The notes under the pieces were generated by a model that had not been told where the DNA came from, made no database searches, and worked only from the letters and a program-made list of their open reading frames with translations. From positions 496,001 to 560,000 of the forward strand of contig JACRJM010000004.1 of assembly GCA_016219965.1 (NCBI GenBank): a DNA stretch of 64,000 nt, in the 5' to 3' direction. A program made the position numbers and the translations under genes. Origin of the DNA: Candidatus Schekmanbacteria bacterium. GTDB lineage: Bacteria > Schekmanbacteria > GWA2-38-11 > J061. This document shows, in pieces, positions 36,027 to 51,595 of this stretch (its first letter is position 1; the number at the start of each line of letters is the position of its first letter).

Positions 36027-37046
36027 TTACAAGAAACGTTCTGTGCATATTGAGGCAATAAGAAAAAACAACCCGGCAAGAATCAGGAATGGAGATAATC
36101 CAATCCATTCAAGTTCAATGCTTTTGGTTTCTTCCATCTTCTTAGCTTCATGTAAAATATAGTTCATTAATTCATCCAGTGCTTTTTCATTGTCTACCCG
36201 GACATATTCCCCGCCTGTTATATTCGAGATGTTTTTAAGTGTTTCCTCTGTTAATGATGTTTTAATATATGAGCCGTCTTCGTTTATATAATAGCTGCTG
36301 ATCCCTTCCATCCCTTCATTTCTTATTGGTATTAAAACATCATTTCCGCTTCCAATGCCTGCTGTGTATATCCTTATCCCATGGCTTGCAGCAAGCCTCG
36401 CAGATTCATAAAGGGAAGATTTATCCATGCTTATGTCCTCTCCGTCAGATATGAGAATCATGACCTTCACACCATGAAAATCAGAGTTGCCAATCATGGA
36501 TATGCCGGTTTTTATTGCTTCACCGATATCACTTCCCGGGATAGTGATATCTGAATCCTTGATGTGTTTTAAAATATACATGCAGTACGAATAATCAGTT
36601 GTGAACGGGATAATCTCAATCCCTTTGCTGGCGAACATATAGGCGCCTATCTTCTCTCCATGCAGGCTGGATAATATATCAAGTGCAAAATACCTTGAAG
36701 AGTTGAGCCTGTTGGGAATAGTAAAAAGCTTCTTGGCCTGAGCCGGGAAATATACATCCTCGGCAAGCATTGATTTTGAAACATCTATACCAAGTACTAT
36801 TTCCAGATTGCTTCGATTAAAATAAGTTTTAGGGTACTGAAACTCCGGTTCTGCAAGTGATAGGCTGAAACTTGCAATGAGCAGGCTGATGAGTATGGTC
36901 TGAAGAATGAAGAACCTGATGTTTTTTTTCTCGCCGGAAAAAGAAAGGAGCCATTTATTTGAGCTCCTGTAGTTCATTATGGAAAAAAACAGGAATAACG
37001 GGATGATCAAAAGGAACAGAAGATAATAGATATTTCCGAGTCTCAT
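36027..37046 (-). CDS. vWA-domain membrane protein, MxaL/BatA-like
   Basis: 339 residues: two N-terminal membrane helices, a von Willebrand A domain with an intact MIDAS (DVSKSM near residue 90, the GSDIGEAIKTGI Thr/Asp region, ISDGED near 200), and a C-terminal helix (ILAGLFFLIASICTERF). BatA and MxaL proteins have this layout and act outside the cytoplasm with a MoxR ATPase. Last of six genes in the order MoxR, DUF58, MxaA-like, vWA, MxaK-like, vWA. The gaps are all under 25 bases. Confidence 0.82.
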   Translation of the reverse strand: MRLGNIYYLLFLLIIPLFLFFSIMNYRSSNKWLLSFSGEKKNIRFFILQTILISLLIASFSLSLAEPEFQYPKTYFNRSNLEIVLGIDVSKSMLAEDVYFPAQAKKLFTIPNRLNSSRYFALDILSSLHGEKIGAYMFASKGIEIIPFTTDYSYCMYILKHIKDSDITIPGSDIGEAIKTGISMIGNSDFHGVKVMILISDGEDISMDKSSLYESARLAASHGIRIYTAGIGSGNDVLIPIRNEGMEGISSYYINEDGSYIKTSLTEETLKNISNITGGEYVRVDNEKALDELMNYILHEAKKMEETKSIELEWIGLSPFLILAGLFFLIASICTERFL

Positions 37047-37061
37047 TTTTATTTGAGAATT

Positions 37062-37823
37062 CTATTTTTCGATTCGAAGTTCCAGTGGTTCGCCCGGCGC
37101 ATATCCGCCTCTTTCAGGGATCAAAGCTTCAAGATTATCCTTAAGCTCAAGACGTCCTTCGTTATCACTTTTGAGCATTTCATATTGTTTGACGTACTGG
37201 TTTGCATATAGAAGTTCGAGATTCCAGCGGGGAATGTTTTTCTCAACAGACGGACCGTCCGACATGTCAACGCTTGCAATGGCTGACTTTAAATCAGCAA
37301 TTGCGTCTTTCATCATACCCTGCGCCTTTTCAGTGTTCCTTTCAGTTTCTAAAACTATAAATGCGTTTAACAGTTTTACAGCGCCATAAAGATTATAGAC
37401 CTGCCATGAGATGCGGCTTTGAGGGGAATCCTTTTCTTTACCAAGCAGAGAGCTGCATCCGTCTTTCATAATATCAAGATGGTTTTTCAATGAATTAATC
37501 ATGTCAGGCACACTCTTTTCAAGGATGGGATTGTCCTTGGCCATCTTAATCTGATGGAGCATATCCTGCGCAATTGCCCACTGTCTCTGCAGAATCCTTA
37601 ATTGGACTTCATGTATAGATGGTTTGAGGTTGCTGTAAATAGTTATTGCCTCTTTATCATCTCTGATATTGTCAGCCTTTCTTATCCCTTTGCCCAGTTC
37701 AATATACTGTGCTTCAAGATTGCTGAAACTCCGGTACTGGATAAATTCATAAATGCCTAAAATCACGAACAGTGAAGCGGAAGCTACCGGCAGCCAGAGT
37801 TTTGAATTTATCTTCATATGCAT
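37062..37823 (-). CDS. MxaK-like membrane-anchored helical protein
   Basis: 253 residues: one N-terminal membrane helix (LWLPVASASLFVILGIYEF) and an all-helical extracytoplasmic domain with TPR-like repetition (SNLKPSIHEVQLRIL, QAQGMMKDAIADLKSAIAS-like units). It ends in RGGYAPGEPLELRIEK. Position between two vWA genes and topology match MxaK of methanol dehydrogenase operons; sequence identity to MxaK cannot be judged here. Assignment is by context and topology. Confidence 0.55.
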   Translation of the reverse strand: MHMKINSKLWLPVASASLFVILGIYEFIQYRSFSNLEAQYIELGKGIRKADNIRDDKEAITIYSNLKPSIHEVQLRILQRQWAIAQDMLHQIKMAKDNPILEKSVPDMINSLKNHLDIMKDGCSSLLGKEKDSPQSRISWQVYNLYGAVKLLNAFIVLETERNTEKAQGMMKDAIADLKSAIASVDMSDGPSVEKNIPRWNLELLYANQYVKQYEMLKSDNEGRLELKDNLEALIPERGGYAPGEPLELRIEK

Positions 37824-37846: not shown

Positions 37847-38962
37847 TTAAAACTTCTTAAACCATGGTGTCAACCGCATGAAAGAATATGAAATCACTAT
37901 TATCATTCCTGTAAATATTAATGCCCATCTTGTCTCTTTTTTCTTTTTGATTATTTTTACCAATAACCTGTTCTTCTCCATTTCATTTATCTCATTGTAG
38001 ATCAGCCTTATCTTTTCTGTGCTCACTATCCTGGGCATATAGAATATACGTCCACCCGGATCGCTCCCTGATTCAGCGTCATACATGGCATTTTTAACCT
38101 CTTCATTAACATCTCCCTCTACTGCTATAATATATAGTCTGACCCCGAGACTTTTAGTTAATTTCACGACATTGGCAAAGTTGGGAAGTCCTTTTTTGAT
38201 ATCTTCATCACTCTTGTTTGCTTCAATCCGTCCGTCAGTGAAAAGTATTATGGCCATTCCCTGCCCGAAATTTATTTTTCGTAATCTGTCAGGAACTTTC
38301 ACTTTTCTCAATGTTTCACCAAGCAGGGTATATCTGAACCCGTCTATTTCTTCGAAGCTGGGCTGGCTGTCTTCTGGAAGGAGCATGAAGAAAACTGACA
38401 AAGCGAGCCAGGCTGCGTAAGATGCGTTCGTGGCTCCTCCTGCAGAAAGTTCCCTGAATACGATTGAATCTGAACCTCTTGTCAGGAGGGCCAGTTTCTT
38501 TTTCAGGATTTCTTTGTCAGACGTGGGAGGTGCGATTAATTTGGCATAGCTCGAAAATGCGATTAATCCGATAAGGTCGTCTTTCTGTCTTAGCTCAATA
38601 AAGTCCTCTGCGCCGTTAATAGCTATATCTCCAAGAGTCTCTTCCCCTGATACGCCGCCGGTCCTGTTCATCGAGCCAGAGAGGTCCTGAACTATCATTA
38701 TCCATTTTGACTCAAGATATGCCTCCTGCCAGAAACTGGAATATTGGATATTAGCTATGGAAAACACAGACACAATCATTAAAAGAGATAACAGAAAGTC
38801 CTCAAGGTTCCTTTTTATAAAACCGGGGGCGAGGCTTTTATCTAAGAGATAGACTCCGGCAAAGCCGGTTTTTGATGTCTTACTTCTTTTAAAATAAATA
38901 ACTGCCGGAATAACCGGTAAAAGCAGAAGCGCCAATGGATACTGGATATCTAAATCTGTCAT
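37847..38962 (-). CDS. vWA-domain membrane protein, MxaC-like
   Basis: 371 residues: two N-terminal membrane helices (about 10-25 and 50-70), a vWA domain with MIDAS motif DLSGSMNR (about 93) and LFTDGRIEAN (about 240), a large insert between them, and a C-terminal helix (ALIFTGMIIVISYSFM). MxaC and BatB proteins share this topology. Middle of the mxaRSACKL-ordered block. Metal-dependent ligand binding in the periplasm is expected from the intact MIDAS. Confidence 0.8.
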   Translation of the reverse strand: MTDLDIQYPLALLLLPVIPAVIYFKRSKTSKTGFAGVYLLDKSLAPGFIKRNLEDFLLSLLMIVSVFSIANIQYSSFWQEAYLESKWIMIVQDLSGSMNRTGGVSGEETLGDIAINGAEDFIELRQKDDLIGLIAFSSYAKLIAPPTSDKEILKKKLALLTRGSDSIVFRELSAGGATNASYAAWLALSVFFMLLPEDSQPSFEEIDGFRYTLLGETLRKVKVPDRLRKINFGQGMAIILFTDGRIEANKSDEDIKKGLPNFANVVKLTKSLGVRLYIIAVEGDVNEEVKNAMYDAESGSDPGGRIFYMPRIVSTEKIRLIYNEINEMEKNRLLVKIIKKKKETRWALIFTGMIIVISYSFMRLTPWFKKF

Positions 38963-38985: not shown

Positions 38986-40584
38986 TTAGCTTTCATTTAT
39001 ATTTATAATCTCAGCCATATCTGATTTGAATTTATCTATTTCACCGTATTCCTTAAGTTCAGCGGCAATTATGTTGTCTGTTTCGTACAGGACTGTTTTT
39101 ACGTTTTTAATCTTATTCCCCGGAATCATATGCCTTACTGATTCAAAGAAGGTGCTTCCGCTTCCGCCAAAAGGTTCCTGCGGTATATTGTATCTGGCAA
39201 CAAGATATTCTCTTAAAAGATTGATGATCTCTTTTATATAGAGCCAGTGAGGCTTTGGCGGTGTGATATTAAGAAGTGTTTTTAGCCTTTCTAAAATCAG
39301 AGCATCAGGTTTTAGTTTTTTTAACAGAATATCTTCTGCCCTTATGTCTTTCTGTCTTTTCCAAATCCATCCAATCAATAAAAAAACTGCTAATATGGAG
39401 ACTGCAAAAATCAATAAGCTTGTTCTTGCCTTCAGGACATAGTCTTCAATGTCAAAATTCTGAGGTAAATCATTAGTGGGTATTATCAGCTTTCTTTCAG
39501 GCTCTTTGGTTGAGACTATAGACGCTGTCTTGAATATTATGGCTTCTGTCATGGAAGTCCTAACCTGTGTGTCTGAACAGGTTGTGCAGGTATAAGTTAT
39601 ATTTACCGGTGGTATTACGAATTCGCCCGGAGCATAAAATCTCATCCTGCCTGTGATAACAATGGGGCTTTTTAAGGCAGCTTTGGCATAATCATAAGTG
39701 TCAAACTCTATGTCAAAAAGTTCTTTTTGAATCTCATTCGGTTTTAAATTGATATTTGCAATCGAGCTTGGATCGATCTTTATAAAATCAGAGAAAGCTA
39801 CAGTCAGAGTAAATGGTATTGCATCTCCTAAATTGCCCCCATTAATGCCAAGAGAGAGTTTTAATCTGAGAGATGGCTCAAGCTTGACCAGGTAGGGCGA
39901 AGCTTCCGCAACATTTATGTCTTCTGCGAAAAAGTTGACCGCTTTAAAGAAGGGAATCTCAAAAATATTTACCCTGTAGATATTGTTCTTCTCTTCATAT
40001 AGAGAATGAAGTTTGCTTGCTAGAAGGTCCTGGCTATTCTTGCCGGCTCCGGTTTTCCATTTCAAATTAATGGCGTTAAAGAATCCATAGGTTGTGTCAT
40101 TTAATCTGATTGCGGGATGCACATAATCTACGTCGGAATTTTCGTTAAGCTTTTGGATAAGGGATTTTAGTGAATTTTTTGATGTATTCTTCTCTATCCT
40201 GAAAAAACAGGCATCTTCAGCTATATTGATGTCATAAAAGAAGTCTTTGAGTTCATTATATTCCTTTATGAGGGGTTTAGCCCTGTTTATGACCTGATTC
40301 TTCCTTTCATCTATGTCTTCCGTATAATCAGCGCCTCCTGACCGGGAACGAAAGACAACTGTGATCCATTCAGTATCGATATCAGGTATGACTTTGGAAC
40401 CATCAGAGCTATAAAACCATATATCATTGAATTCTATCTGAGCAGGAAATCTCTTTGCTTTTATGTCAGAGCTAAAATGGGAAACAGCTTCAGATAAACT
40501 GATGTTTATAAAAATAAAAAGGATGGAAGCAAAGATAACAATCAGGTTCACGCTATCTCTTTTATTACATTTATAATATTTCAT
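38986..40584 (-). CDS. MxaA/BatD-like membrane protein with extra N-terminal domain
   Basis: 532 residues: signal or anchor helix (about 12-30), a long extracytoplasmic region, a membrane helix near 395-415 (SLLIFAVSILAVFLLIGWIW) and a cytoplasmic C-terminal helical domain. The region around 225-385 has the beta-sandwich pattern of MxaA/BatD (GDAIPFTLTVAF, ITGRMRFYAPGEFVIPPV). The N-terminal 200 residues carry motifs such as SDVDYVHPAIRLNDT and NVAEASPYLVKLEPS, reminiscent of subtilase propeptide (I9-like) folds; this part is not typical of MxaA. Two Cys (CTTC) sit just before the membrane helix. Name is by position and topology. Confidence 0.6.
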   Translation of the reverse strand: MKYYKCNKRDSVNLIVIFASILFIFINISLSEAVSHFSSDIKAKRFPAQIEFNDIWFYSSDGSKVIPDIDTEWITVVFRSRSGGADYTEDIDERKNQVINRAKPLIKEYNELKDFFYDINIAEDACFFRIEKNTSKNSLKSLIQKLNENSDVDYVHPAIRLNDTTYGFFNAINLKWKTGAGKNSQDLLASKLHSLYEEKNNIYRVNIFEIPFFKAVNFFAEDINVAEASPYLVKLEPSLRLKLSLGINGGNLGDAIPFTLTVAFSDFIKIDPSSIANINLKPNEIQKELFDIEFDTYDYAKAALKSPIVITGRMRFYAPGEFVIPPVNITYTCTTCSDTQVRTSMTEAIIFKTASIVSTKEPERKLIIPTNDLPQNFDIEDYVLKARTSLLIFAVSILAVFLLIGWIWKRQKDIRAEDILLKKLKPDALILERLKTLLNITPPKPHWLYIKEIINLLREYLVARYNIPQEPFGGSGSTFFESVRHMIPGNKIKNVKTVLYETDNIIAAELKEYGEIDKFKSDMAEIININES

Positions 40585-40602: not shown

Positions 40603-41478
40603 TTAGATGGCTTTTCTCATGAAGCTATCGATTCTTTGCCTGAAATTATCTTTTGGCCTGATTACTATTGAGTCAATTCCGGAAGTATCAAGGTTGTATT
40701 TCGTTTCTTCAATATGCAGTCTCATCTTTTCATTAAAAGATTCCCACTTGTTGAGATCAAGAAGCATGGTATGCCCGCTTTCATAATCTTTAAATGCTAT
40801 AATCCCGCAGGAATCTGAGGGGAGTTCTGTCTCGAAATCCTCGACTATCTGAAGGGCTTTAACCTCATGCTTGCTGGTACCATGAGTTGTTCTATGGAAA
40901 TTATATTTGCAATTAACCGGATACATAAAGTCTGAAAGAATGAATGACAGGCTTTCAGGGACTTCATTTATAAGTTTTGTCAATGCACGGTCTATGTTGG
41001 TAATAGGGCAATCAACCGGCTCTGTACGTGATATAACATTTAGAATGTCCATGAAATGAGGCATTCCCATTCGGGGTGGGATATAGGTTATCAAGTCATC
41101 AGCGAACATTATTAACCCGCATCCATTATTCCCTTTTATCGCGCTGTAGGCGAGAGATACGGCTATATTGGCCTGAAGCAATTCCTTTCTTCCAAATGAT
41201 ACAGATTTGCTGATGTCATAAAGGATCATTAAAGTGAAATAGCTCTCGGCAAGATATTCCCTGACATAGTATTTGCCGCTTTTGGCAGTTGCCTTCCAGT
41301 CTATGTTCCTAAATGAATCTCCATGTTCAAGTTCTCTCAATGACCAGAATTCATAACCTGAACCTCTGAATATGCTTTCCCAGTCTCCCGGGAATGGTGA
41401 ATTCACCCTGTGATTTAGAAATATCTCCAGAAGTTCTTTTTTGGAGAAAAGCTGCTGTTCAGACTTTATGGTTTCCAT
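40603..41478 (-). CDS. DUF58 protein, MxaS-like
   Basis: A 291-residue DUF58 protein with the family signature GYEFWSLRELEHGDSFRNID then WKATAKSGKYYVREY, followed by a degenerate vWA-like fold (LMILYDISKSVSFG). DUF58 proteins are obligatory companions of MoxR ATPases in Bat- and Mxa-type operons. No membrane helix is evident, unlike many DUF58 proteins, so it likely works in the cytoplasm with MoxR. It follows the MoxR gene by one base. Confidence 0.85.
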   Translation of the reverse strand: METIKSEQQLFSKKELLEIFLNHRVNSPFPGDWESIFRGSGYEFWSLRELEHGDSFRNIDWKATAKSGKYYVREYLAESYFTLMILYDISKSVSFGRKELLQANIAVSLAYSAIKGNNGCGLIMFADDLITYIPPRMGMPHFMDILNVISRTEPVDCPITNIDRALTKLINEVPESLSFILSDFMYPVNCKYNFHRTTHGTSKHEVKALQIVEDFETELPSDSCGIIAFKDYESGHTMLLDLNKWESFNEKMRLHIEETKYNLDTSGIDSIVIRPKDNFRQRIDSFMRKAI

Positions 41479-41479
41479 T

Positions 41480-42487
41480 TCAGTAAGGCCTTGTCATTTT
41501 AAGAACCTCGTTGACAATGAATTCAGCCGTTATACCTTTTGAGACCGCATTGCTGTTGAGCAAAATACGGTGTCTTAAAACATGTACAGCATACTTGTTG
41601 ACGTCTTCGAAATTTACGAAATCACGTCCCTGGCAAAAAGCTAATGACTTTGAGACAGCCAGCAGAAACTCAGTCGCGCGCGGCGAGGCGCCAAGCCTTA
41701 TGTAATTATAAATATCATTTTTGATCTTCTGTCCTTTGTATGTTTCAGGAGGACGTGTGACAGTGCATATGTTAAGCATGTAATCCATGATGTTCTGAGA
41801 GACACTTATCTCATCATGGATTATTTTCTGGATATCGATGATTTCTGCCGGCGATGTAACAGGCTTTACATCAGCTTTCAATTCTTCAAAATTTGAATTC
41901 TTTCTGACAATCAGTTTCCTTTCATCATTTATTTCCGGATAATCTACATCGTATTTAATCATGAAACGGTCTACCTGGGCTTCAGCCAGCGGATATGTGC
42001 CTATCTGCTCTATGGGATTCTGTGTTGCCAGGACCATAAATGGAGTGGGTATAGGGTATTTCATGCACTCCACGGTTACTTCCTTTTCCTGCATTGCCTG
42101 TAAAAGAGCAGATTGTACTTTTGGCGAAGCCCGGTTTATTTCGTCAGCCAGGAATATGTTGCAGAATATGGGACCGAAGTAATAGTTGAATTTCTGTTCT
42201 TTTTCATTGTAAACCATTGTGCCTGTTATATCGCTTGGCATCTTGTCTGGAGTGAACTGAAACCTTATAAAATTCATACCAGCCACTTTTGCGAATGTTT
42301 CAACTGCAAGGCTTTTCGCAAGACCCGGAACACCTTCCAGCAGTATATGGCCTTTGGACAGGAGAGTATGGATCATTAAATCCACCATTTCTTCCTGCCC
42401 GATAATTACCTTGCCGATTTCAGCCTTGATTGCACTGATCTTCGCTGCATAATTATTGAAGCGTTTTTCTTTATCGGGCCCAGTCAT
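41480..42487 (-). CDS. moxR: MoxR-family AAA+ ATPase (MxaR-like)
   Basis: A 335-residue AAA+ ATPase: Walker A LLEGVPGLAKSLAVE, Walker B NIFLADEINRASPKVQSA, sensor-1 VLATQNPIEQIGTYPLAEAQ and the PRATEFLLAVSKS sensor-2 region. MoxR proteins form rings that act with vWA proteins to insert metals or cofactors or to remodel target enzymes; in mxa operons this serves calcium insertion into methanol dehydrogenase. First of the six-gene mxaRSACKL-like block and 51 bases after the corrinoid-type permease. Target here is not a methanol dehydrogenase, as none is present. Confidence 0.88.
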   Translation of the reverse strand: MTGPDKEKRFNNYAAKISAIKAEIGKVIIGQEEMVDLMIHTLLSKGHILLEGVPGLAKSLAVETFAKVAGMNFIRFQFTPDKMPSDITGTMVYNEKEQKFNYYFGPIFCNIFLADEINRASPKVQSALLQAMQEKEVTVECMKYPIPTPFMVLATQNPIEQIGTYPLAEAQVDRFMIKYDVDYPEINDERKLIVRKNSNFEELKADVKPVTSPAEIIDIQKIIHDEISVSQNIMDYMLNICTVTRPPETYKGQKIKNDIYNYIRLGASPRATEFLLAVSKSLAFCQGRDFVNFEDVNKYAVHVLRHRILLNSNAVSKGITAEFIVNEVLKMTRPY

Positions 42488-42538: not shown

Positions 42539-43588
42539 TTACATGTATTCAAACCTCTTTCTGTATTTTACGAGCAGATAGAGAAAAAACGGCCCTCCCA
42601 TCAAAGAGGTAAGTATGCCGATTTTCAGATCCACTTTCACTATCAATCTGACAAAAAGGTCAGCATAAATGATAAAAACCGCGCCTAACAGACCTGCAAA
42701 GAAAATAAGTTTTTTATTGTCCGGCCCAACGATACTTCTCATTATATGCGGTGCTATAAGACCGACAAAACCTATCGTCCCCGAAACAGCGATAGCCCCG
42801 CCTGTCTGTATTGATGAAAAAAGAAGAAGAGCGTTGCGTGAAAGCTTTGTGTTTACGCCAAGATTGGCAGCGGTTTCCTCATCTATCATTAATATGTTAA
42901 GGTCCTTGATGAAAAAAGTTGTTCCTAAAAGTGCCAAGGCTGTGCTTGGAAAAACAATCTGTACATGCTCCCATGAACGGTTATTCATATCTCCCATAAG
43001 CCATGTGATGATCACCCTGCCTACATCAAATTCCCTCGTGCTTAATGAAATAACGAAAGAAGTAAGGGCGCCAAAGATCAGATTAAGTGCGATTCCTGCA
43101 AGCAGCAGAGTTGAAACTGAAGTATGCCCATTCGATGTCGCAATGAGATAAACGCAAATCAGCGTTATTAAGGAAAAGAGTATGGCGCATAAAGGAAGCG
43201 CTAATACAGAGAACGCTGAAAACCCCAGATAGATGGCTATTACCGCACCTAATGCTGCGCCTGAATCAATGCCAATAACGCCGGGGCTTGCCATAGGGTT
43301 TTTGAATATACCCTGCGTAATTGTTCCCGCAACGCCAAGAGAGAATCCAACCAAGAAGGCTACAAGAACGCGCGGCATCCGTCCGTCCCAGACGATTGTT
43401 GCCTCTACCTGATCTATGTCGGATGAGAGAAGTCCAAGTTTGGTAAAGATTATTTTAAATAAATTATCGAGACCGATCTTCCAGTCTCCTGAGGAAATCT
43501 CCAGAAAAAAACCAAGCAGCAGAATCCCGGCAAGGATTATTAACAGAACAAATTCTTTATTTGGCAAAATCCTGAAATCATCTTTCAT
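42539..43588 (-). CDS. FecCD/BtuC-type ABC permease
   Basis: About 349 residues from an ATG behind AGGGA; an in-frame TTG at 43603 is the alternative. About nine or ten membrane helices with signatures GRMPRVLVAFLVGFSLGVAG, NPMASPGVIGIDSGAALGAV and GTIGFVGLIAPHIMRSIVG. The family imports vitamin B12, haem or ferric siderophores. Overlaps the end of the binding-protein gene by 11 bases. Corrinoid is the best substrate guess because a B12-dependent enzyme is encoded just upstream. Confidence 0.85.
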   Translation of the reverse strand: MKDDFRILPNKEFVLLIILAGILLLGFFLEISSGDWKIGLDNLFKIIFTKLGLLSSDIDQVEATIVWDGRMPRVLVAFLVGFSLGVAGTITQGIFKNPMASPGVIGIDSGAALGAVIAIYLGFSAFSVLALPLCAILFSLITLICVYLIATSNGHTSVSTLLLAGIALNLIFGALTSFVISLSTREFDVGRVIITWLMGDMNNRSWEHVQIVFPSTALALLGTTFFIKDLNILMIDEETAANLGVNTKLSRNALLLFSSIQTGGAIAVSGTIGFVGLIAPHIMRSIVGPDNKKLIFFAGLLGAVFIIYADLFVRLIVKVDLKIGILTSLMGGPFFLYLLVKYRKRFEYM

Positions 43589-44606
43589 AAACAATCCCTG
43601 CAAGAAGATTTGCGCTCAGAATTATAAATTGTGAATCAACCCTTAAATAGACACCGGGGACATAATAGATTTTATTTTCCTTTACCGCCTTTGCATGAGA
43701 GAGAATCTTGTTTGCCGTTAGCTGTTCCTTGAGCCTGCTTCCCTCAGGGACAATTATAATATCAGGGTCCCATTTAAGGAGGGTTTCAAAATCTATCTGT
43801 GACCATGATTTGATTCCCTTTTCCTCTCCAACATTAATGACATTTATTAACTCGCATATAGAAGTGAAATTAGAAGACTTTCCCGGGATATATCCTCCTT
43901 CATCATAATATAAGACCCTCAACCGGCTTTTCATCTGCGGCAATTTTGTTTTAAGATCCGCTATCTTTTCATTCATTGTTTTTATGAGTGCTTCTGCATT
44001 TCCTTCCTCTCCTATAATCCTGCCTAAAAGGAGAATCTGGGATTCTATGGAGCTAATAGTCCCGAAATAACCGAGGTCAAAGAAGGGAACATTTGCCTGT
44101 TTCAATTTATCTTTAAAAGATGAGTCAGAATAGAATACCGTGAAAACTATATCAGGATTGAGGCCTATAATAAGTTCAGTTTGTTTTGAGCGGAAGATAT
44201 TGCCGCTTTTTCTCACTTCATCTGAGATAAATGAGAAATCCGGGTCTGCTGAATATTCGTTAAAGGACAATATTCTTTCACGGGGACATATGGCCCACAA
44301 AATATCTGCCACACCGACAGCATGAGGTACTATTCTCAGAGGTTTACGCTTCATATTGAAAGTTTTATCTTCAAGGCTGAAAGTGTCAGTTTTAAAGTCA
44401 TACATTTCATAGCTGTACTTTATTGTTCTGGGCCATTCATTATCCTGAACTACTCCTCTCGCATAACTTAAAGCTTCTTTAAGGCTGCTCATTTCGAGCG
44501 GGGCAGGAGGGGAGAGAGTCCCCTTATTATCCTGGCTCTCCTGAGGACGGCATGCCGCGATTAATAGAATCATGCAGGCACAAACAGCCATTTTTTTAAT
44601 TGTCAT
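43578..44606 (-). CDS. BtuF-type periplasmic binding lipoprotein
   Basis: About 342 residues from the internal ATG giving MTIKKMAVCACMILLIAAC, a signal peptide with lipobox; the longer ORF lacks a sensible start. The class III binding fold is visible: RIVPHAVGVADILWAICPRE, ELIIGLNPDIVFT, PFFDLGYFGTISSIESQILL, LLKWDPDIIIVPEG and ENKIYYVPG. It delivers corrinoid, haem or siderophore to the permease. It overlaps the ATPase gene end by 11 bases. Confidence 0.82.
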   Translation of the reverse strand: MTIKKMAVCACMILLIAACRPQESQDNKGTLSPPAPLEMSSLKEALSYARGVVQDNEWPRTIKYSYEMYDFKTDTFSLEDKTFNMKRKPLRIVPHAVGVADILWAICPRERILSFNEYSADPDFSFISDEVRKSGNIFRSKQTELIIGLNPDIVFTVFYSDSSFKDKLKQANVPFFDLGYFGTISSIESQILLLGRIIGEEGNAEALIKTMNEKIADLKTKLPQMKSRLRVLYYDEGGYIPGKSSNFTSICELINVINVGEEKGIKSWSQIDFETLLKWDPDIIIVPEGSRLKEQLTANKILSHAKAVKENKIYYVPGVYLRVDSQFIILSANLLAGIVYER

Positions 44607-45390
44607 CAGTAGTTGTCTTTTTAGTTTTATAAGAATAAAAATTAAGAAAACATCCTGAGCTGCTTCTGATCTCATCAACATCAACTCCGAAGACCTCTAC
44701 GATGTTTTCTTTTGAAAATGCCTCAGATGGGTGTCCATGATAATAAATAAGCCCATTATTGATAATCGTAATAGTATCGCAATACCGTCTGGCTAGATTC
44801 AGATCATGGACACATAGAAGGATCGTTTTATTTATCTTCTTTATAGTGCCAAGCAATTCCATGATTGCCAGCGTGTGTTTGATATCAAGGTCGGAAGTAG
44901 GTTCATCAAGTAGGATTACTGATGCTTCTGTGGCAAGAGCACGGGCGATAACCGAGAGCTGGCACTCACCACCAGACAACTCATTGCTGTTCCGGTCTTT
45001 TAGTTCATAAGTGTCGGTTTCACGCAGGGCCTTTTCTATGATCTCACGGTCTTTTTTCTTTAGTCCTTCAAATCGCCCGAGGTGCGGATTCCGTCCCATG
45101 CTGACTATGTCATAGACAGTGATCGGAAAGCTTATGCTGGTATTCTGCGGGACAAGAGTAATCAGCTTGCTCAGTTCTTTTCTTGATAACGCTCGATAGT
45201 CCCTGTCGCTGATAAAAACAGCGCCTGATTCAGGCTCCCATATTCTGCAGATATTCTTCAGCAAGGTTGACTTTCCTGAGCCGTTTGGACCAATTATGCC
45301 ATGAATCATGCAGGGTTCGAAGGTAGCTGAGATTCCTTTTAGTATTTTCTTTTCTTCAATTGAGAAATGTATGTTTTCTAATTTAATCAT
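44596..45390 (-). CDS. BtuD/FecE-type ABC ATPase
   Basis: A 264-residue ABC ATPase: Walker A GPNGSGKSTLLKN, Q-loop VPQNTSISFPITV, signature LSGGECQLSVIARALA, Walker B ASVILLDEPTSDLD and His switch LLCVHDLNLA. Family FecE/BtuD by neighbours and by the VYDIVSMGRNPHLGRF segment. Powers the importer with the two downstream genes. Confidence 0.86.
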   Translation of the reverse strand: MIKLENIHFSIEEKKILKGISATFEPCMIHGIIGPNGSGKSTLLKNICRIWEPESGAVFISDRDYRALSRKELSKLITLVPQNTSISFPITVYDIVSMGRNPHLGRFEGLKKKDREIIEKALRETDTYELKDRNSNELSGGECQLSVIARALATEASVILLDEPTSDLDIKHTLAIMELLGTIKKINKTILLCVHDLNLARRYCDTITIINNGLIYYHGHPSEAFSKENIVEVFGVDVDEIRSSSGCFLNFYSYKTKKTTTDDN

Positions 45391-45418: not shown

Positions 45419-46231
45419 TCAGGAACATATTTTTAATTTATATGTTATTGGAAGAATGAACTTCGATATAGCTACAAGTATAAAACCCAGGAAAACTATA
45501 ACCGACATTATGTGAGATGAAAGATGACCGGTAAAAGAACTTGTCACCCATAATGCACTCCATAAGAATAATTGACCCAGCAGAAGCTGAAAATTCTGTG
45601 ATGTGGTATAAATAACCCAGAAGTGCTGGGAAAGGTCTGTAAGTTCGCATTTCCTTATTTTTATCTCTATAATCTTAAACCATGTTCTCCCTTCAATGAT
45701 TTGTGCAGAGCCGTCACAGACATGATGAAGAAAATAAATAACAATGAGCAGATGACTCTTGAATGTGATGTCATTAAAAAGATATTTAAATACGGGAGGG
45801 AAGCATGACAGCAAGAATACGGCACCAAGAGCCTGTCCAAAAGCTATTCCAAAATGAACCTTTATCAGTTTACTTATCTGTGTTTTTATTTCTTTAAAAG
45901 CCTCGAGCCGGTCAATGAACCCGGACGTATATGTGCTGCTTATCATGGTTATACCGGGATAAGCGTATTTAACAACGACTCCTAAAATCGCTGCGACTTT
46001 AAGGTCTTCTTCAGCCATTGTGAACATTGTATATAGTATGACTCCGTCGAGGATATTTTTTCCTATTGTATAAAGCAGGTTTCCTATTTCACCGTAGCGG
46101 TAGAATGGTACCCTTAAGAGAGATGATATATAAAGTTTGATCTTTTCATTTAAGGGCGGAGTCTTATGTCCATTGATATCAAAAGGCTGTTTGATTTCCA
46201 TAATTATGCCCGGTGAAAACACACTCAGCAT
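45419..46231 (-). CDS. unknown polytopic membrane protein in the eut-btu block
   Basis: 270 residues; the ATG at 46201 (MEIKQPFDINGHKTPPL) may be the true start, giving 260. About six membrane segments, including VAAILGVVVKYAYPGITMIS, LLIVIYFLHHVCDG and VIVFLGFILVAISKFILPI. The segment GFIDRLEAFKEIKTQISKLI is a charged cytoplasmic loop. No family recognised. Being between the lyase and the importer genes it could be a transporter or assembly component of the same system, but that is only positional. Confidence 0.6.
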   Translation of the reverse strand: MLSVFSPGIIMEIKQPFDINGHKTPPLNEKIKLYISSLLRVPFYRYGEIGNLLYTIGKNILDGVILYTMFTMAEEDLKVAAILGVVVKYAYPGITMISSTYTSGFIDRLEAFKEIKTQISKLIKVHFGIAFGQALGAVFLLSCFPPVFKYLFNDITFKSHLLIVIYFLHHVCDGSAQIIEGRTWFKIIEIKIRKCELTDLSQHFWVIYTTSQNFQLLLGQLFLWSALWVTSSFTGHLSSHIMSVIVFLGFILVAISKFILPITYKLKICS

Positions 46232-46352: not shown

Positions 46353-48629
46353 TCAAATCTTTTCTGTCATTCCTTTTAGCAGCCTAACTGTTTCTTTGGC
46401 AGCTAATTCCGGTTTTAATGCAGTATCAGCAATGTTGCAGACTACCTTGACTATGTCGTGGTCACATTTCTTTTCTGCCCAAACATCAGCTTTTGGCGCA
46501 GCAATATAGACTGAGAAGCTGTGATGCTCTGTCCCCGGCCTTTCCCCGATGATGTTAAGAACTGCTTTGGGTTTAGCGGGATCTGACTTTCCGAAAAGTA
46601 CATTGCCTATTTCATAACCGGCTCTGACTCGGCCGTTTATAACTACTACGGTTTTTTCATCAACAGTGTACCCGGCATCTTTTAATTCTTTTTTCAATTC
46701 CTTTAGATAAGGTGCAATATGTCCCGGATCCATGACGGCATTTCCGCTTAAACCGTCAGAAATCACTATCTGCACATCAGGATCTTTTCCACCCCATGAA
46801 TCTCTAAGCTTTTCAAGGCTTGCAACAGCCTGCTCATTCAGTTTTTCGCCGGTTGGAGGATGTGCAACATAATCCTCTCTGTCCTTGGACATTGTTGCAA
46901 TCTGAATCGGGTTGGGAATGGTCTTTATAAAATCAGGAGTAAACTCGGACCAGAGGCATTTTTTGGCATCTTCATAAAGACCATAGAGTCTCTTCTTCAA
47001 TACCGGGTTCATGTCCGCGACATTCTTACCATGTCCGATTGCTAAATCAACTGCGCAGCCCTGAACCTCATTTATCTTCTTCTGTCCTTCAGCATAGATT
47101 TCGTCTTTTGACCTTGTGTCGCCCTTTGCAAGGCAGAACTGGTAATATACCCAAAGCGGATCTCCGGCGTGTTCGGTATATTTCCCGTTTTTGTCAATTA
47201 TCTGTATTTTCTTGAAGAAGTCCCACATCGCGTCGTTTACTTTGTAACCGAACTTGTTACGAAGACGGACATGGTCCTGATAACCCGTTGTGAGGTAGCT
47301 TAACATAGGATCGTTCTTTGTCGGAAGGGCCATCAGATATGCGGGATTAGCCGGCATGATTTGGTCGATGCACCAGTCAAGGTCATCAAGAGTGACAGGC
47401 ATGTGCAGGGTTGAGCAAATATCAAGACCTGCCGCCAGCCCATGCAGTTTTCCCATAGTTATATCTTCAAGACAGCATCTGACAAGCTGCTCGCGTGTCC
47501 TGAATACTTCAGGGCCGATGAATCCAGCCACATCGTTAAAATGTGTCCAGGCTCCATTGGGCTGTACCTTTGCAAGCTCCTGTTTCAGCCCGCGTGCGAA
47601 TCCATATTTTCTTGATTCAAGAACAGCCATATCCACACCGTTGGCAGCTCCGTTTGTAAAATCAGATCCCTGGCCTGTCTCATAATATAGCCCGTATTTT
47701 TGGCCGGCACGCGATTTAGCATGGCCTATCATCTTTTCAACTGAAACATCAAAAGTCTTGTTGGCATCATCTGTACCTGCAAGGCTCTGGAACAAGAAAT
47801 CAACAAGCTCAGGGTTGTCTTTGCGGACTGCGCTCTGGACATCAACATGCGAAAGAACGCACCATGGAAGAGTGTCTTCAAGCTTGAAGGTAACAATTAC
47901 ATCCTTTAGAGCTTTCTGAATCTTTGCACAGGCTTCTTTTGAACCGTCCACCGGGTTGGTTCCAAGAACTACATCTCCGACGGCGAAAGAAAACGCATTA
48001 AAAGTCTGCCACTGAATATCATCAGGATCATCTGTCGGTGAATTGGGTTGTATCCTTGCTCCCATATAACCCTTGGCGCCTATCTTGCTTCCCGGCAGAG
48101 GGTTAAATATTTTTTGGCCTACTGATATCAGTTCCTTGTTGCTCATAAGCTTTGGAACGCAACCTATGATTTCGCTGTTCAATCCTCCCATGATTCCTTT
48201 GATCTCGGACTCGGATTTTGTGAGTATGAAATTCTTGAGTTCCCCCATAGTCCAGCCATTGATCTTTTCATAGGCAGCATTATCAGTGGTATCCCAAATG
48301 AATTTCTGTAACGTGTCAGCAAGCAGCGGATGTTCGTGAAGATCTTTTATTTTTGTATTAGCTAGAAGCTTTCTTGCATTACCCCTGCTTTTTTCATTAT
48401 CAGCGGCAACACCGATTGCTTCATCCCCCTCTTTAAATGCGTTTGCAGCGCCTATTATCTGCCTGTAAAGCGTCTGGTCGAATTTCCCTTTAATCCTTTC
48501 AATATATTTGAATATATCTTCTCCGGATTTGACATCTGTTATTGATACTGCACTACAGAGAGTACTCAGTGAGAGAAAAAAGAAGCAAGCGAGGCTTGCT
48601 ATCAATATATTTCGCATCAGTTTTTTCAT
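46353..48629 (-). CDS. eutBC: exported ethanolamine ammonia-lyase, EutB-EutC fusion
   Basis: 758 residues from the ATG behind GGGGGAGG; an in-frame start at 48647 would add six. A Sec-type signal peptide (MKKLMRNILIASLACFFFLS, ending in LCSA) precedes a full EutB domain (about 32-580) and a C-terminal EutC core (about 585-758) lacking the first ~130 residues of E. coli EutC. EutB signatures include IGAANAFKEGDEAIGVAA, GARIQPNSPTDDP, LYYETGQGSDF (catalytic Glu region) and GLDICSTLHM; EutC shows DVQIVISDGLS and LNIIGERPGT. The enzyme splits ethanolamine to acetaldehyde and ammonia with adenosylcobalamin. No EutA, microcompartment or eut dehydrogenase genes are nearby. Export is inferred from the leader. 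No twin-arginine motif. Confidence 0.9.
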   Translation of the reverse strand: MKKLMRNILIASLACFFFLSLSTLCSAVSITDVKSGEDIFKYIERIKGKFDQTLYRQIIGAANAFKEGDEAIGVAADNEKSRGNARKLLANTKIKDLHEHPLLADTLQKFIWDTTDNAAYEKINGWTMGELKNFILTKSESEIKGIMGGLNSEIIGCVPKLMSNKELISVGQKIFNPLPGSKIGAKGYMGARIQPNSPTDDPDDIQWQTFNAFSFAVGDVVLGTNPVDGSKEACAKIQKALKDVIVTFKLEDTLPWCVLSHVDVQSAVRKDNPELVDFLFQSLAGTDDANKTFDVSVEKMIGHAKSRAGQKYGLYYETGQGSDFTNGAANGVDMAVLESRKYGFARGLKQELAKVQPNGAWTHFNDVAGFIGPEVFRTREQLVRCCLEDITMGKLHGLAAGLDICSTLHMPVTLDDLDWCIDQIMPANPAYLMALPTKNDPMLSYLTTGYQDHVRLRNKFGYKVNDAMWDFFKKIQIIDKNGKYTEHAGDPLWVYYQFCLAKGDTRSKDEIYAEGQKKINEVQGCAVDLAIGHGKNVADMNPVLKKRLYGLYEDAKKCLWSEFTPDFIKTIPNPIQIATMSKDREDYVAHPPTGEKLNEQAVASLEKLRDSWGGKDPDVQIVISDGLSGNAVMDPGHIAPYLKELKKELKDAGYTVDEKTVVVINGRVRAGYEIGNVLFGKSDPAKPKAVLNIIGERPGTEHHSFSVYIAAPKADVWAEKKCDHDIVKVVCNIADTALKPELAAKETVRLLKGMTEKI

Positions 48630-48664
48630 GACATATGCCTCCCCCAATAGAATACCTAACAGAG

Positions 48665-49459
48665 TTAAAAAGCTATGTTTATAGCCGCACCTCCATAGAC
48701 GAATTCATCATGTCCTTTTTGTCCGGTAACACTTCCAGCTTTGATTTCATTTTTTGCTTTATCGCTGAGCGGGAAAGAGTAGTTCATGCTTGGCACCACG
48801 GTCACATACTTGTTAATTGGGATATTAAGAGCAGCCCATACATTTCCGTCATGCATTGCTTCATAGTTGGATGTTCCGAAATTTCCAGGTCTGTGCATAT
48901 AGCTGACCCAACCGCCGACATCAAAGGACCAGTCTTCAGTCAGGCTGGTTTTTACCGGGAAAGGTATATTCTGATATACCGCAAAGTTCCAATAATAAGC
49001 TTCTCCAAGCTCTATGTCTCTGTATACGCTGATAGTAGGATTTAGCAGAGTGCTAAGTCCAAGCGTAAGATAAAGCTCCTGTGTATTGCCTGCGTCTGTA
49101 TCATAATAAATATATCCCAATGTATAGTTCAACATGTCGAAGTTGTTGCTGTATGTCCATACCCAGTCTGTTTCCCACCATTCTTTCTCTCCCGTACCTT
49201 CGTAGTTTGTATCCATGTCGCCCCACATATTCATGGAAAAACCTTTATAAGATATCGTGATGGTAGGGAAGATGACCAGGCTGTCATGCCCCAGTGCATA
49301 ACCTCTCCATATGTAATCTGAATAGAACCCTAAGGACATCTTAGCTGTTGGCCTGTCTTCTTCTGCGGCTTCTTCTTCAGCGATAGCAACAGGCGTTATG
49401 GAGAAAAACAACAGGAAAACAGACAAGCAGATAAAGATTTTTTTCAACGATCGGATCAT
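48665..49459 (-). CDS. outer-membrane beta-barrel protein
   Basis: 264 residues with a signal peptide (FLLFFSITPVAIAEEEAAEE). The mature part alternates aromatic-rich strands (SLGFYSDYIWRGYALG, FSMNMWGDMDTNY, FDMLNYTLGYIYYD) and ends in a terminal Phe (GGAAINIAF), typical of porin-like barrels of the TorF/MltA-neighbour type. It likely lets a small solute cross the outer membrane. First gene of the block and 35 bases before the lyase start; SD GAGGAGGGG. Confidence 0.75.
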   Translation of the reverse strand: MIRSLKKIFICLSVFLLFFSITPVAIAEEEAAEEDRPTAKMSLGFYSDYIWRGYALGHDSLVIFPTITISYKGFSMNMWGDMDTNYEGTGEKEWWETDWVWTYSNNFDMLNYTLGYIYYDTDAGNTQELYLTLGLSTLLNPTISVYRDIELGEAYYWNFAVYQNIPFPVKTSLTEDWSFDVGGWVSYMHRPGNFGTSNYEAMHDGNVWAALNIPINKYVTVVPSMNYSFPLSDKAKNEIKAGSVTGQKGHDEFVYGGAAINIAF

Positions 49460-49939: not shown

Positions 49940-50422
49940 ATGGAAATGAAGAAGATTTGTTTGTTAGGTACATTAATGGCATTTCTTTTTGTTTGTTTTT
50001 TGATTGGCTATGCTGAAGAAAAAGCAGTCCAAAGTTCTCCTTATGAAATTTTTTTAACCAAATGTACTAAATGCCATGACAAGGAACAGGCACTGAAAAG
50101 ACATGAATCAAAAACGTATTGGATAGATGTAGTCAGAAGAATGACGATGGAACATGGAGTAAAGGTTTCCAGTGAAGAATCTGATGCAATTGTAAAAATG
50201 CTGGCAGATCCTGATCGCAAAGTTTTCGAGGATAAATGCAGTAAATGTCATCCGCTCGACAGAATAAGTTCGTACCATGAAACAGATGGAAAAGCCAAAG
50301 AGGTTACTGAGAAGATGAGCAAAAAAGACGGTGCGAATATATCAGAGGATGAAAAGAAAAAAGTAGAAAAGTATCTTGAGTATCGAAACAAACCTACTTT
50401 CCCTTTGTCGCCCCAGAGATGA
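49940..50422 (+). CDS. exported dihaem c-type cytochrome
   Basis: A 160-residue protein with signal peptide (LLGTLMAFLFVCFLIGYAEE) and two haem-binding motifs, CTKCH at 42-46 and CSKCH at 100-104. The two halves are related: each has CxxCH, a W/Y then a RMTMEHG or KMSKKDG Met segment, and an SEE/SEDE helix, so the protein looks like a tandem mono-haem domain. It would carry electrons in the periplasm. Strong SD AGGAGGAGGGGGA. Divergent from the lyase block; a possible electron acceptor for aldehyde oxidation, but no dehydrogenase is visible. Confidence 0.8.
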   Translation: MEMKKICLLGTLMAFLFVCFLIGYAEEKAVQSSPYEIFLTKCTKCHDKEQALKRHESKTYWIDVVRRMTMEHGVKVSSEESDAIVKMLADPDRKVFEDKCSKCHPLDRISSYHETDGKAKEVTEKMSKKDGANISEDEKKKVEKYLEYRNKPTFPLSPQR

Positions 50423-50497
50423 GTAATTACATAGATTACGGCATTTGATAAAAAGTGTTGTAAATATGGGATGCAGAATAAAACGGGGGAGGGAAAT

Positions 50498-51595
50498 ATG
50501 AAAAAAATATTCTATTTGCTGGTTGTATTTATTGCTCTCTTTTTCACTCTTCAACCTGTCAGTTCAAATCTATGTGCTGAGACATTAAGGATAACGTGTT
50601 GGGCCGGCTATGCAGAACCATATGTTAATGAGTTTAAGGAATTGGTTAAAAAGAAATATAATACAGCGCTTACCGTTGAGATATACAATCCTACTGATCA
50701 GGATGAATTTTACAAAGCAGCAAAGAATGGGACTGCTGATCTGATCTCTCCACCGGCAGATTTAGCAAAAACACCAAGGTTCTATTGCTTTAAAGACGGT
50801 GATTATCTGCTTTCTCCAATAGATGAGAAGAATATTCCGAACCTTAAAAATCTACTGCTATTCTTTGCTAAAGATCAGTCCCTGATACATAATGGTAAGC
50901 GGTATGGGGTTCCTTACAATTGTGGTCCCTACGGACTTGCATACAATACCAATGTTGTAAAAAAAGCGCCGGAGAGCTGGAATATTTTTTGGGAACCTGA
51001 GTATGCAGGCAAATATACAATAAACAATAATTTCCATAAATGCAATATCTGGATTACAGCACTTTCCCTTGGTTATAACTATGACCAGATATTTGATATT
51101 GCTAAACTTGACCGTAAGAAGATTCAGGATAAATTAAACATCCTTGCAAAAAATGCAAAAAGCCTTTGGGATGGTGAAGCAAACCCGGATGAATTCCCGC
51201 AGCTCTCTCTTGCCACGACATGGGGATTTGCGGCGCAGCAGGCAAATATGAAAGGCGGACACTGGCTGATTGCAAGCCCAAAAGAGGGGGGGACAGCCTG
51301 GATTGACTACTGGTGTATTACAAAAGCTGCTACCGGGATGAAAAAGAAACTGTGCGAGGAATGGATAAATTTTGAGTTGTCACCAAAGAATCAGGCCAAT
51401 GTCGTAAAGTCGCTTGGTGTCTCGCCGGTTGTAAATAATGCTGATACGCTTGTAACACCAACTGAGAAGACGCTTTTCCATGTCGGCGATAATGAATATT
51501 TTAAAACAGTTGCCATTTGGCGTGTTATGAGCGAGGAGACTGAAAAAGCTTTCGGCGAGATGTGGGAAGATGCGAAAAAACTAAGAACCAAGTAA
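50498..51595 (+). CDS. PotD/PotF-like periplasmic substrate-binding protein (no permease)
   Basis: About 365 residues from the ATG behind GGGGGAGGG, rather than the ORF start at 50471. Signal peptide FFTLQPVSSNLCAET. The mature part follows the polyamine-binding-protein pattern: TLRITCWAGYAEPYVNEFKE, GTADLISPPADL, GVPYNCGPYGLAYNTNVV, FWEPEYAGKYTINNN, SPKEGGTAWIDYW. Several aromatic residues suggest an amine ligand. No ABC permease or ATPase is adjacent, so it is an orphan binding protein. Given its neighbours it may capture ethanolamine or a related amine for a periplasmic enzyme; inference only. Confidence 0.78.
   Translation: MKKIFYLLVVFIALFFTLQPVSSNLCAETLRITCWAGYAEPYVNEFKELVKKKYNTALTVEIYNPTDQDEFYKAAKNGTADLISPPADLAKTPRFYCFKDGDYLLSPIDEKNIPNLKNLLLFFAKDQSLIHNGKRYGVPYNCGPYGLAYNTNVVKKAPESWNIFWEPEYAGKYTINNNFHKCNIWITALSLGYNYDQIFDIAKLDRKKIQDKLNILAKNAKSLWDGEANPDEFPQLSLATTWGFAAQQANMKGGHWLIASPKEGGTAWIDYWCITKAATGMKKKLCEEWINFELSPKNQANVVKSLGVSPVVNNADTLVTPTEKTLFHVGDNEYFKTVAIWRVMSEETEKAFGEMWEDAKKLRTK

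Follow-up and report, generated by a model that had tools for sequence, protein, structure and literature searches.

Ethanolamine ammonia-lyase (EAL) is a vitamin-B12 enzyme that is normally found inside the bacterial cell, where it converts ethanolamine to acetaldehyde and ammonia. The stretch of Candidatus Schekmanbacteria DNA analysed here (64 kb, called the window below) encodes an EAL whose two subunits are read as one chain behind a predicted signal peptide. This raises the question of whether the enzyme is exported and, if so, how an adenosylcobalamin (AdoCbl)-dependent enzyme might obtain its cofactor and have it replaced outside the cytoplasm.

The fused enzyme and its leader

The preliminary description of this DNA, made from the sequence alone, had placed both subunits in one chain, and Pfam indeed locates EutB (PF06751, residues 55-486, E 1.4e-145, 486 bits) and EutC (PF05985, residues 539-756, E 2.7e-34, 119 bits, profile positions 25-226 of 235) in a single frame of the window ORF, both above the cut-off. 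In NCBIfam, the protein passes the cut-off of the EutB subfamily and misses that of the EutC equivalog (94 versus 230); the GRV and GERPG motifs of EutC are kept. The gene is the sole eutB of its genome, which is 98% complete. From the E. coli EutB structure we take R160, Q162, N193, E287, F329, D362 and M392 to have active-site roles. The first six are kept in 29 of 29 aligned exported sequences and M392 in 28 of 29, and as each residue checked is kept in the window protein, the catalytic regions are intact, as had been supposed. An AlphaFold2 model of the protein (pLDDT 90.3, pTM 0.84, with the lowest confidence at residues 18-25 of the leader) has the EAL fold, its best PDB match being E. 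coli EAL 3abo (TM 0.90 for chain A and 0.73 for chain B, by target length). Judged by domains, active-site residues and predicted fold, the window protein is a predicted ethanolamine ammonia-lyase.

The leader was assessed by eye, by hydrophobicity and by comparison with relatives. The window protein begins with MKKLMRNILIASLACFFFLSLSTLCSA, followed by VSI; its n-region is rich in K and R, the 12-mer of the h-region has a mean Kyte-Doolittle value of 2.84, and C-S-A precedes VSI. The ATG at 48629 is the better start, because an upstream TTG at 48647 overlaps the Shine-Dalgarno-like site (Table 1). A signal peptide behind the best Shine-Dalgarno site, as first described, is thus upheld by recognisable n-, h- and c-regions, a cleavage site and a leader type that is conserved among orthologues. 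Between the window protein and its relatives, only 2-14 of 22-26 leader positions are identical while the remainder of the protein is 54-81% identical, and such a divergent leader on a conserved body is as expected for a signal peptide. Two trivial explanations were rejected: a start-codon artefact, since the sole good Shine-Dalgarno site is at this ATG and the leader type is conserved, and a decayed copy, since the active-site residues are kept. Both are very unlikely because the leader is kept across phyla and the fusion and active site are intact. Export of the window enzyme is therefore a prediction that is well supported computationally.

Table 1. Positions in the window of the predicted exported eutBC gene, its parts and its neighbours.
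Feature	Position	Strand	Remarks
PotD-like substrate-binding protein without permease	50471..51595	(+)	divergent here; many relatives have it within the operon
TorF-like outer-membrane porin with leader	48665..49459	(-)	directly upstream of eutBC; conserved neighbour
Shine-Dalgarno-like GGGGGAGG	48645-48638	(-)	8 nt 5' of ATG
Predicted exported EutB-EutC fusion	46353..48629	(-)	758 aa; ATG 48629, stop 46353; AlphaFold2 model, PDB 3abo match
Sec-type signal peptide (predicted)	48552..48629	(-)	residues 1-26 or 27; predicted cleavage between CSA and VSI
EutB large-subunit domain	47172..48467	(-)	catalytic R192, Q194, N225, E317, F370, D403, M433
EutC small-subunit core	46362..47015	(-)	GRV, IGERPG and S/Y motifs
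memC2, conserved multi-helix membrane protein, operon marker	45419..46231	(-)	alignment of relatives
BtuD/FecE-like ABC ATPase	44596..45390	(-)	profile match
BtuF-like substrate-binding protein, probable lipoprotein (LLIAAC)	43578..44606	(-)	PF01497; internal ATG taken as start
BtuC-like FecCD permease	42539..43603	(-)	profile match
MoxR AAA+ ATPase (AAA_3)	41480..42487	(-)	profile match
DUF58 protein	40603..41478	(-)	profile match
BatD/MxaA-like exported, membrane-anchored protein	38986..40584	(-)	position and architecture, without Pfam match
VWA protein 1	37847..38962	(-)	profile match
K protein (MxaK position), operon marker	37062..37823	(-)	position
VWA protein 2	36027..37046	(-)	profile match

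A clade of leader-bearing fusions with two leader types

Scanning 84,980 species genomes yielded 25 relatives, and more came from further surveys; among 396 Bacteroidota genomes, 11 encode an ordinary EutB that is not fused (about 700-733 bits) and 2 a fused EutBC with leader (about 460 bits). In a tree built on 77 EutB cores, 46 sequences form one clade on a long branch with support of 100/99, so that the clade of leadered EutB-EutC fusions whose existence had been raised earlier was found. All 46 members have an N-terminal leader and none of the 31 other EutB rows does, although the latter include fusions (L054, L055, L083-L085 and L094). The exported clade reaches three or more phyla and keeps the leader throughout. 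Its nearest outgroup, L094 (6104-8275), is fused, leaderless and 37% identical to the window protein, and the genome of L094 (G537) also encodes a Sec-type EutBC with its operon. A second, independent EutB-EutC fusion of about 705 aa, without leader, lies within the canonical EutB clade (L083:7736-9847, L084:5219-7339 and L085:6230-8347), and no EutA was found near it in the stretches searched. The leaderless fused EutBCs L054 and L055 are adjoined by EutH and EutA. Several Desulfuromonadales have two exported EutBC copies (genomes G044, G045, G046, G048 and G049; L050, L051, L049, L052 and L053). Behind the second copy of L049, a cobalamin riboswitch and cobalamin-biosynthesis genes take the place of the MoxR module, the riboswitch and a tetrapyrrole methylase gene coming after memC2.

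Leaders of the Sec type are found in the window protein, in two LacPavin MAGs, in one Acidobacteria MAG and in most Desulfuromonadota/Desulfobacterota, and leaders of the Tat or Tat-like type in L090, L091 and L092 (RREF/RRKF), in L097 (PRRAFL) and in 14 Bacteroidota. Strict RRxF Tat motifs occur at the leader position in four Desulfo lineages. The Bacteroidota leaders mostly contain RKxFL (RR in L016 and L022) and 12 of the 14 have a lipobox cysteine; over all 18 Tat or Tat-like leaders, the twin residues are RR in 6 (L016, L022, L090, L091, L092 and L097) and RK/RN in 12. When the Sec-type rows were examined with a script, 26 of 28 matched [ASGVCT]-x-[AG] directly before the conserved hydrophobic-x-I start, and by eye the remaining two read TYAGA before VTI and FAGV before VTI. 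For the most hydrophobic 12-residue segment ahead of the core, the values are 1.89-3.27 in Sec leaders, 1.24-2.16 in Tat-like leaders and -0.45 to 1.18 in other EutB; the gap between Tat-like and leaderless sequences is narrow, and the RRxF/RKxF motif and the lipobox discriminate better. Within each group the leaders vary in sequence and the type stays constant. Each of the 41 genomes whose leader could be typed encodes TatC.

The conserved operon, EutA and cobalamin supply

Around Sec-type members the gene order is TorF-like porin, often the PotD-like binding protein, eutBC, memC2, BtuD, BtuF, BtuC, MoxR, DUF58, BatD-like, VWA, K and VWA. The eutBC gene thus shares an operon with a MoxR ATPase, a DUF58 protein and two VWA proteins, the gene set of an mxa-type module. 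Of 11 relatives of the porin, 6 match PF09694 (Gcw_chp). The memC2 protein is strongly conserved and tied to Sec-type EutBC; by sequence it gave no match in Pfam, NCBIfam or solved structures, and a fold search gave a weak MFS-like resemblance below significance. The BatD-like and K proteins have no match in Pfam or NCBIfam. Between the eutBC operon and the PotD-like gene, a small exported c-type cytochrome is encoded (49940-50422, + strand) with weak similarity to PF09098, the haem-binding domain of quinohemoprotein amine dehydrogenase (E 1.5e-9).

No Sec-type operon was found locally around Tat-type members, and the same contrast is seen over whole genomes: memC2 is encoded by 18 of 23 Sec genomes versus 0 of 18 Tat-like genomes, the K protein by 19 of 23 versus 0 of 18, and one or the other by 21 of 23 versus 0 of 18 (Fisher 9e-10, a significance that is overstated as the genomes are not independent). 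The two Sec genomes with neither marker are G042 and G620; most genomes are MAGs, in which absences are soft. The leader type changed about two times independently on the tree, where a single Tat clade is not rejected (p-AU 0.10), and for a test of the Sec/Tat contrast the tree offers just two independent pairs, too few for a significance of 0.05.

EAL loses its activity during turnover, and EutA swaps the damaged cofactor using ATP (PMC5821096). Neither EutA nor EutH nor shell genes were found beside exported eutBC, and by profile search the window genome and 39 of the 42 genomes encoding exported EutBC lack a full-length EutA, only three having one; the puzzle of the missing reactivase, posed by the preliminary description, is therefore real. 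In the window genome the EutA-profile match is confined to positions 119-227, as in FtsA-like background. Short matches of this kind, present in nearly all genomes, mostly at profile positions 119-265 and in ORFs of about 340-530 aa, were rejected as such background, and B. subtilis and other controls give similar ones. A full-length EutA is encoded at L108:1477-3006 (genome G713), near glutamate-dehydrogenase-like and ferredoxin-like genes and with no EutB beside it in this stretch of 4.4 kb; the sole EutB of that genome is of the exported kind. In Tat-type members, both EutA and the MoxR/VWA module are missing.

The window itself contains no cobalamin riboswitch at gathering score. Its genome has one, which lies on a different contig and precedes a TonB-dependent receptor near BtuFCD-type genes, and because these separate riboswitch-linked genes exist, the BtuFCD-like set of the operon is an additional, dedicated one. 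The genome also encodes a PduO-type adenosyltransferase. In L026, a cobalamin riboswitch and a TonB receptor adjoin the operon. Genes of the aldehyde:ferredoxin oxidoreductase (AOR) kind lie beside eutBC in seven relatives (L011, L026 and L099, confirmed by Pfam, and L088, L089, L100 and L101), and L097 has acetate kinase and phosphotransacetylase as neighbours.

Proposed cofactor loading outside the cytoplasm and its alternatives

The reading that we regard as reasonably probable is that the window protein represents an exported single-chain AdoCbl-dependent EAL, of which the Sec form would leave the cell as apo-enzyme and be loaded by the MoxR/VWA module in place of EutA, while the Tat form would be exported already loaded. 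Computation shows the fusion, leader, clade, active site, operon and lack of EutA, whereas we infer the periplasmic location, the substrate, the loading role of the module and the role of the transporter. The Sec leader would bring the unfolded chain into the periplasm, where it would fold, bind cobalamin and convert ethanolamine to acetaldehyde and ammonia. Acetaldehyde would diffuse inward and be oxidised, in many relatives by the AOR encoded next door. MoxR, a cytoplasmic ATPase, would load and exchange the cofactor through the membrane-anchored DUF58, BatD-like, VWA and K proteins, in a way similar to the service of MxaACKL to periplasmic methanol dehydrogenase; loading and exchange by the co-encoded module seem most likely because an EutA beyond the membrane would have no ATP to use. 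The dedicated BtuFCD-like importer may return spent corrinoid for re-adenosylation, and that memC2 moves AdoCbl outward is a guess, its MFS-like fold match not being significant. Tat or Tat-like members would skip the module because their enzyme is, in this proposal, exported folded and cofactor-loaded. Against the reading stand the roughly two independent switches behind the Sec/Tat contrast and the RK or RN in place of RR in 12 of 18 Tat-like leaders. The more specific scheme, in which an AdoCbl radical enzyme works outside the cytoplasm, the MoxR/VWA module draws on cytoplasmic ATP to insert and exchange its cofactor instead of EutA, and the ABC importer recycles spent corrinoid, is put forward only tentatively.

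It is possible, if rather unlikely, that the EAL is exported and that the MoxR, DUF58 and VWA proteins are unrelated to cobalamin, the enzyme loading spontaneously from a TonB-supplied periplasmic pool and the module having a general envelope or Bat-type function. MoxR/VWA sets are common and also serve other purposes, and EAL can bind free AdoCbl. The MoxR of the operon shares about 45% identity with generic MoxRs, for example of Bacteroides, and a MoxR search of plasmid records aimed at mxa clusters returned generic MoxRs; in addition, Tat-like members manage without the module. However, the place of the module in the eutBC operon is kept across distant lineages, the K protein occurs in 19 of 41 genomes, every one with the Sec form, and EAL, which turnover inactivates, normally needs ATP-driven cofactor exchange (PMC5821096).

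We consider it improbable that the leader serves as a membrane anchor or goes unused and that the enzyme works in, or facing, the cytoplasm, with porin, binding protein and ABC proteins importing ethanolamine or cobalamin. The neighbours of the Pelobacter carbinolicus genes were read as an uptake system in 2012 (PMC3543383), and the AOR, Pta/AckA and cobalamin-biosynthesis neighbours of relatives have cytoplasmic functions. Yet by the usual criteria a leader whose n-region is positive, whose h-region is short and whose small-x-small site is conserved is a cleavable export signal. Most Bacteroidota members have lipobox cysteines, four Desulfo lineages have strict RRxF motifs at the position of the leader, and the leaderless fused relatives that possess EutH and EutA look different. 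That an exported protein acts on another substrate, such as choline or another amino alcohol, or binds cobalamin without being a catalyst is very improbable: the clade lies on a long branch and choline was suggested as a possible substrate of one P. carbinolicus copy (PMC3543383), but every EAL substrate-site residue tested is kept and acetaldehyde-oxidising genes adjoin eutBC.

Relation to known systems and implications

The window protein has in common with EutBC of E. coli and Salmonella the two domains, the fold (3abo chains A and B) and the active-site residues, and it differs from them in being one chain with a leader, in having no EutA, EutH or shell genes adjacent and in belonging to a separate deep clade. 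Fused eutBC1 and eutBC2 without eutA were reported for P. carbinolicus in 2012; these two fusions are its reported EALs, and some strains of the species grow on ethanolamine (PMC3543383), which supports activity of the exported family. The neighbours in that cluster are of the kinds seen here, with genes for a binding protein, a multi-TM protein, a corrinoid-type ABC transporter, VWFA proteins, an ATPase and AOR, and they are treated as uptake genes; the passages found mention neither a leader nor export of EutBC, and neither the Tat/Sec split nor a link to MoxR is drawn (PMC3543383). Our literature search for a periplasmic or exported EAL returned nothing beyond this report. What is new here is the conserved leader, its two types, the link of these types to a maturation-like module, and the difference from those leaderless fusions that are accompanied by EutA.

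In gene kind and order only, the operon resembles MxaRSACKL, likewise beside an exported cofactor enzyme; the mxa order is MoxR, DUF58, BatD/MxaA-like, VWA, K and VWA. In the present operon the module would serve a B12 enzyme and not a Ca-dependent methanol dehydrogenase. MxaACKL act in calcium insertion into periplasmic methanol dehydrogenase (PMC6028718, PMC11845868), and MoxR-VWA systems have been linked to cofactor incorporation (PMC12657314). For Tat-type EutBC, a precedent exists in the reductive dehalogenase PceA, a corrinoid enzyme that carries a Tat leader to which a chaperone, PceT, binds (PMC8905343). PceA differs in not being an AdoCbl radical enzyme, as EutBC is, and the sequences are unrelated. 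We know of no comparable precedent for Sec-exported corrinoid enzymes and, to our knowledge, no AdoCbl-dependent radical enzyme has been described that works outside the cytoplasm.

If the proposed reading is true, bacteria can place and service AdoCbl beyond the compartment that contains ATP, and the poorly understood MoxR/VWA modules would gain a specific candidate client that is easily assayed. Sec members with the module and Tat members without it would then represent a natural experiment on the export of cofactor enzymes.
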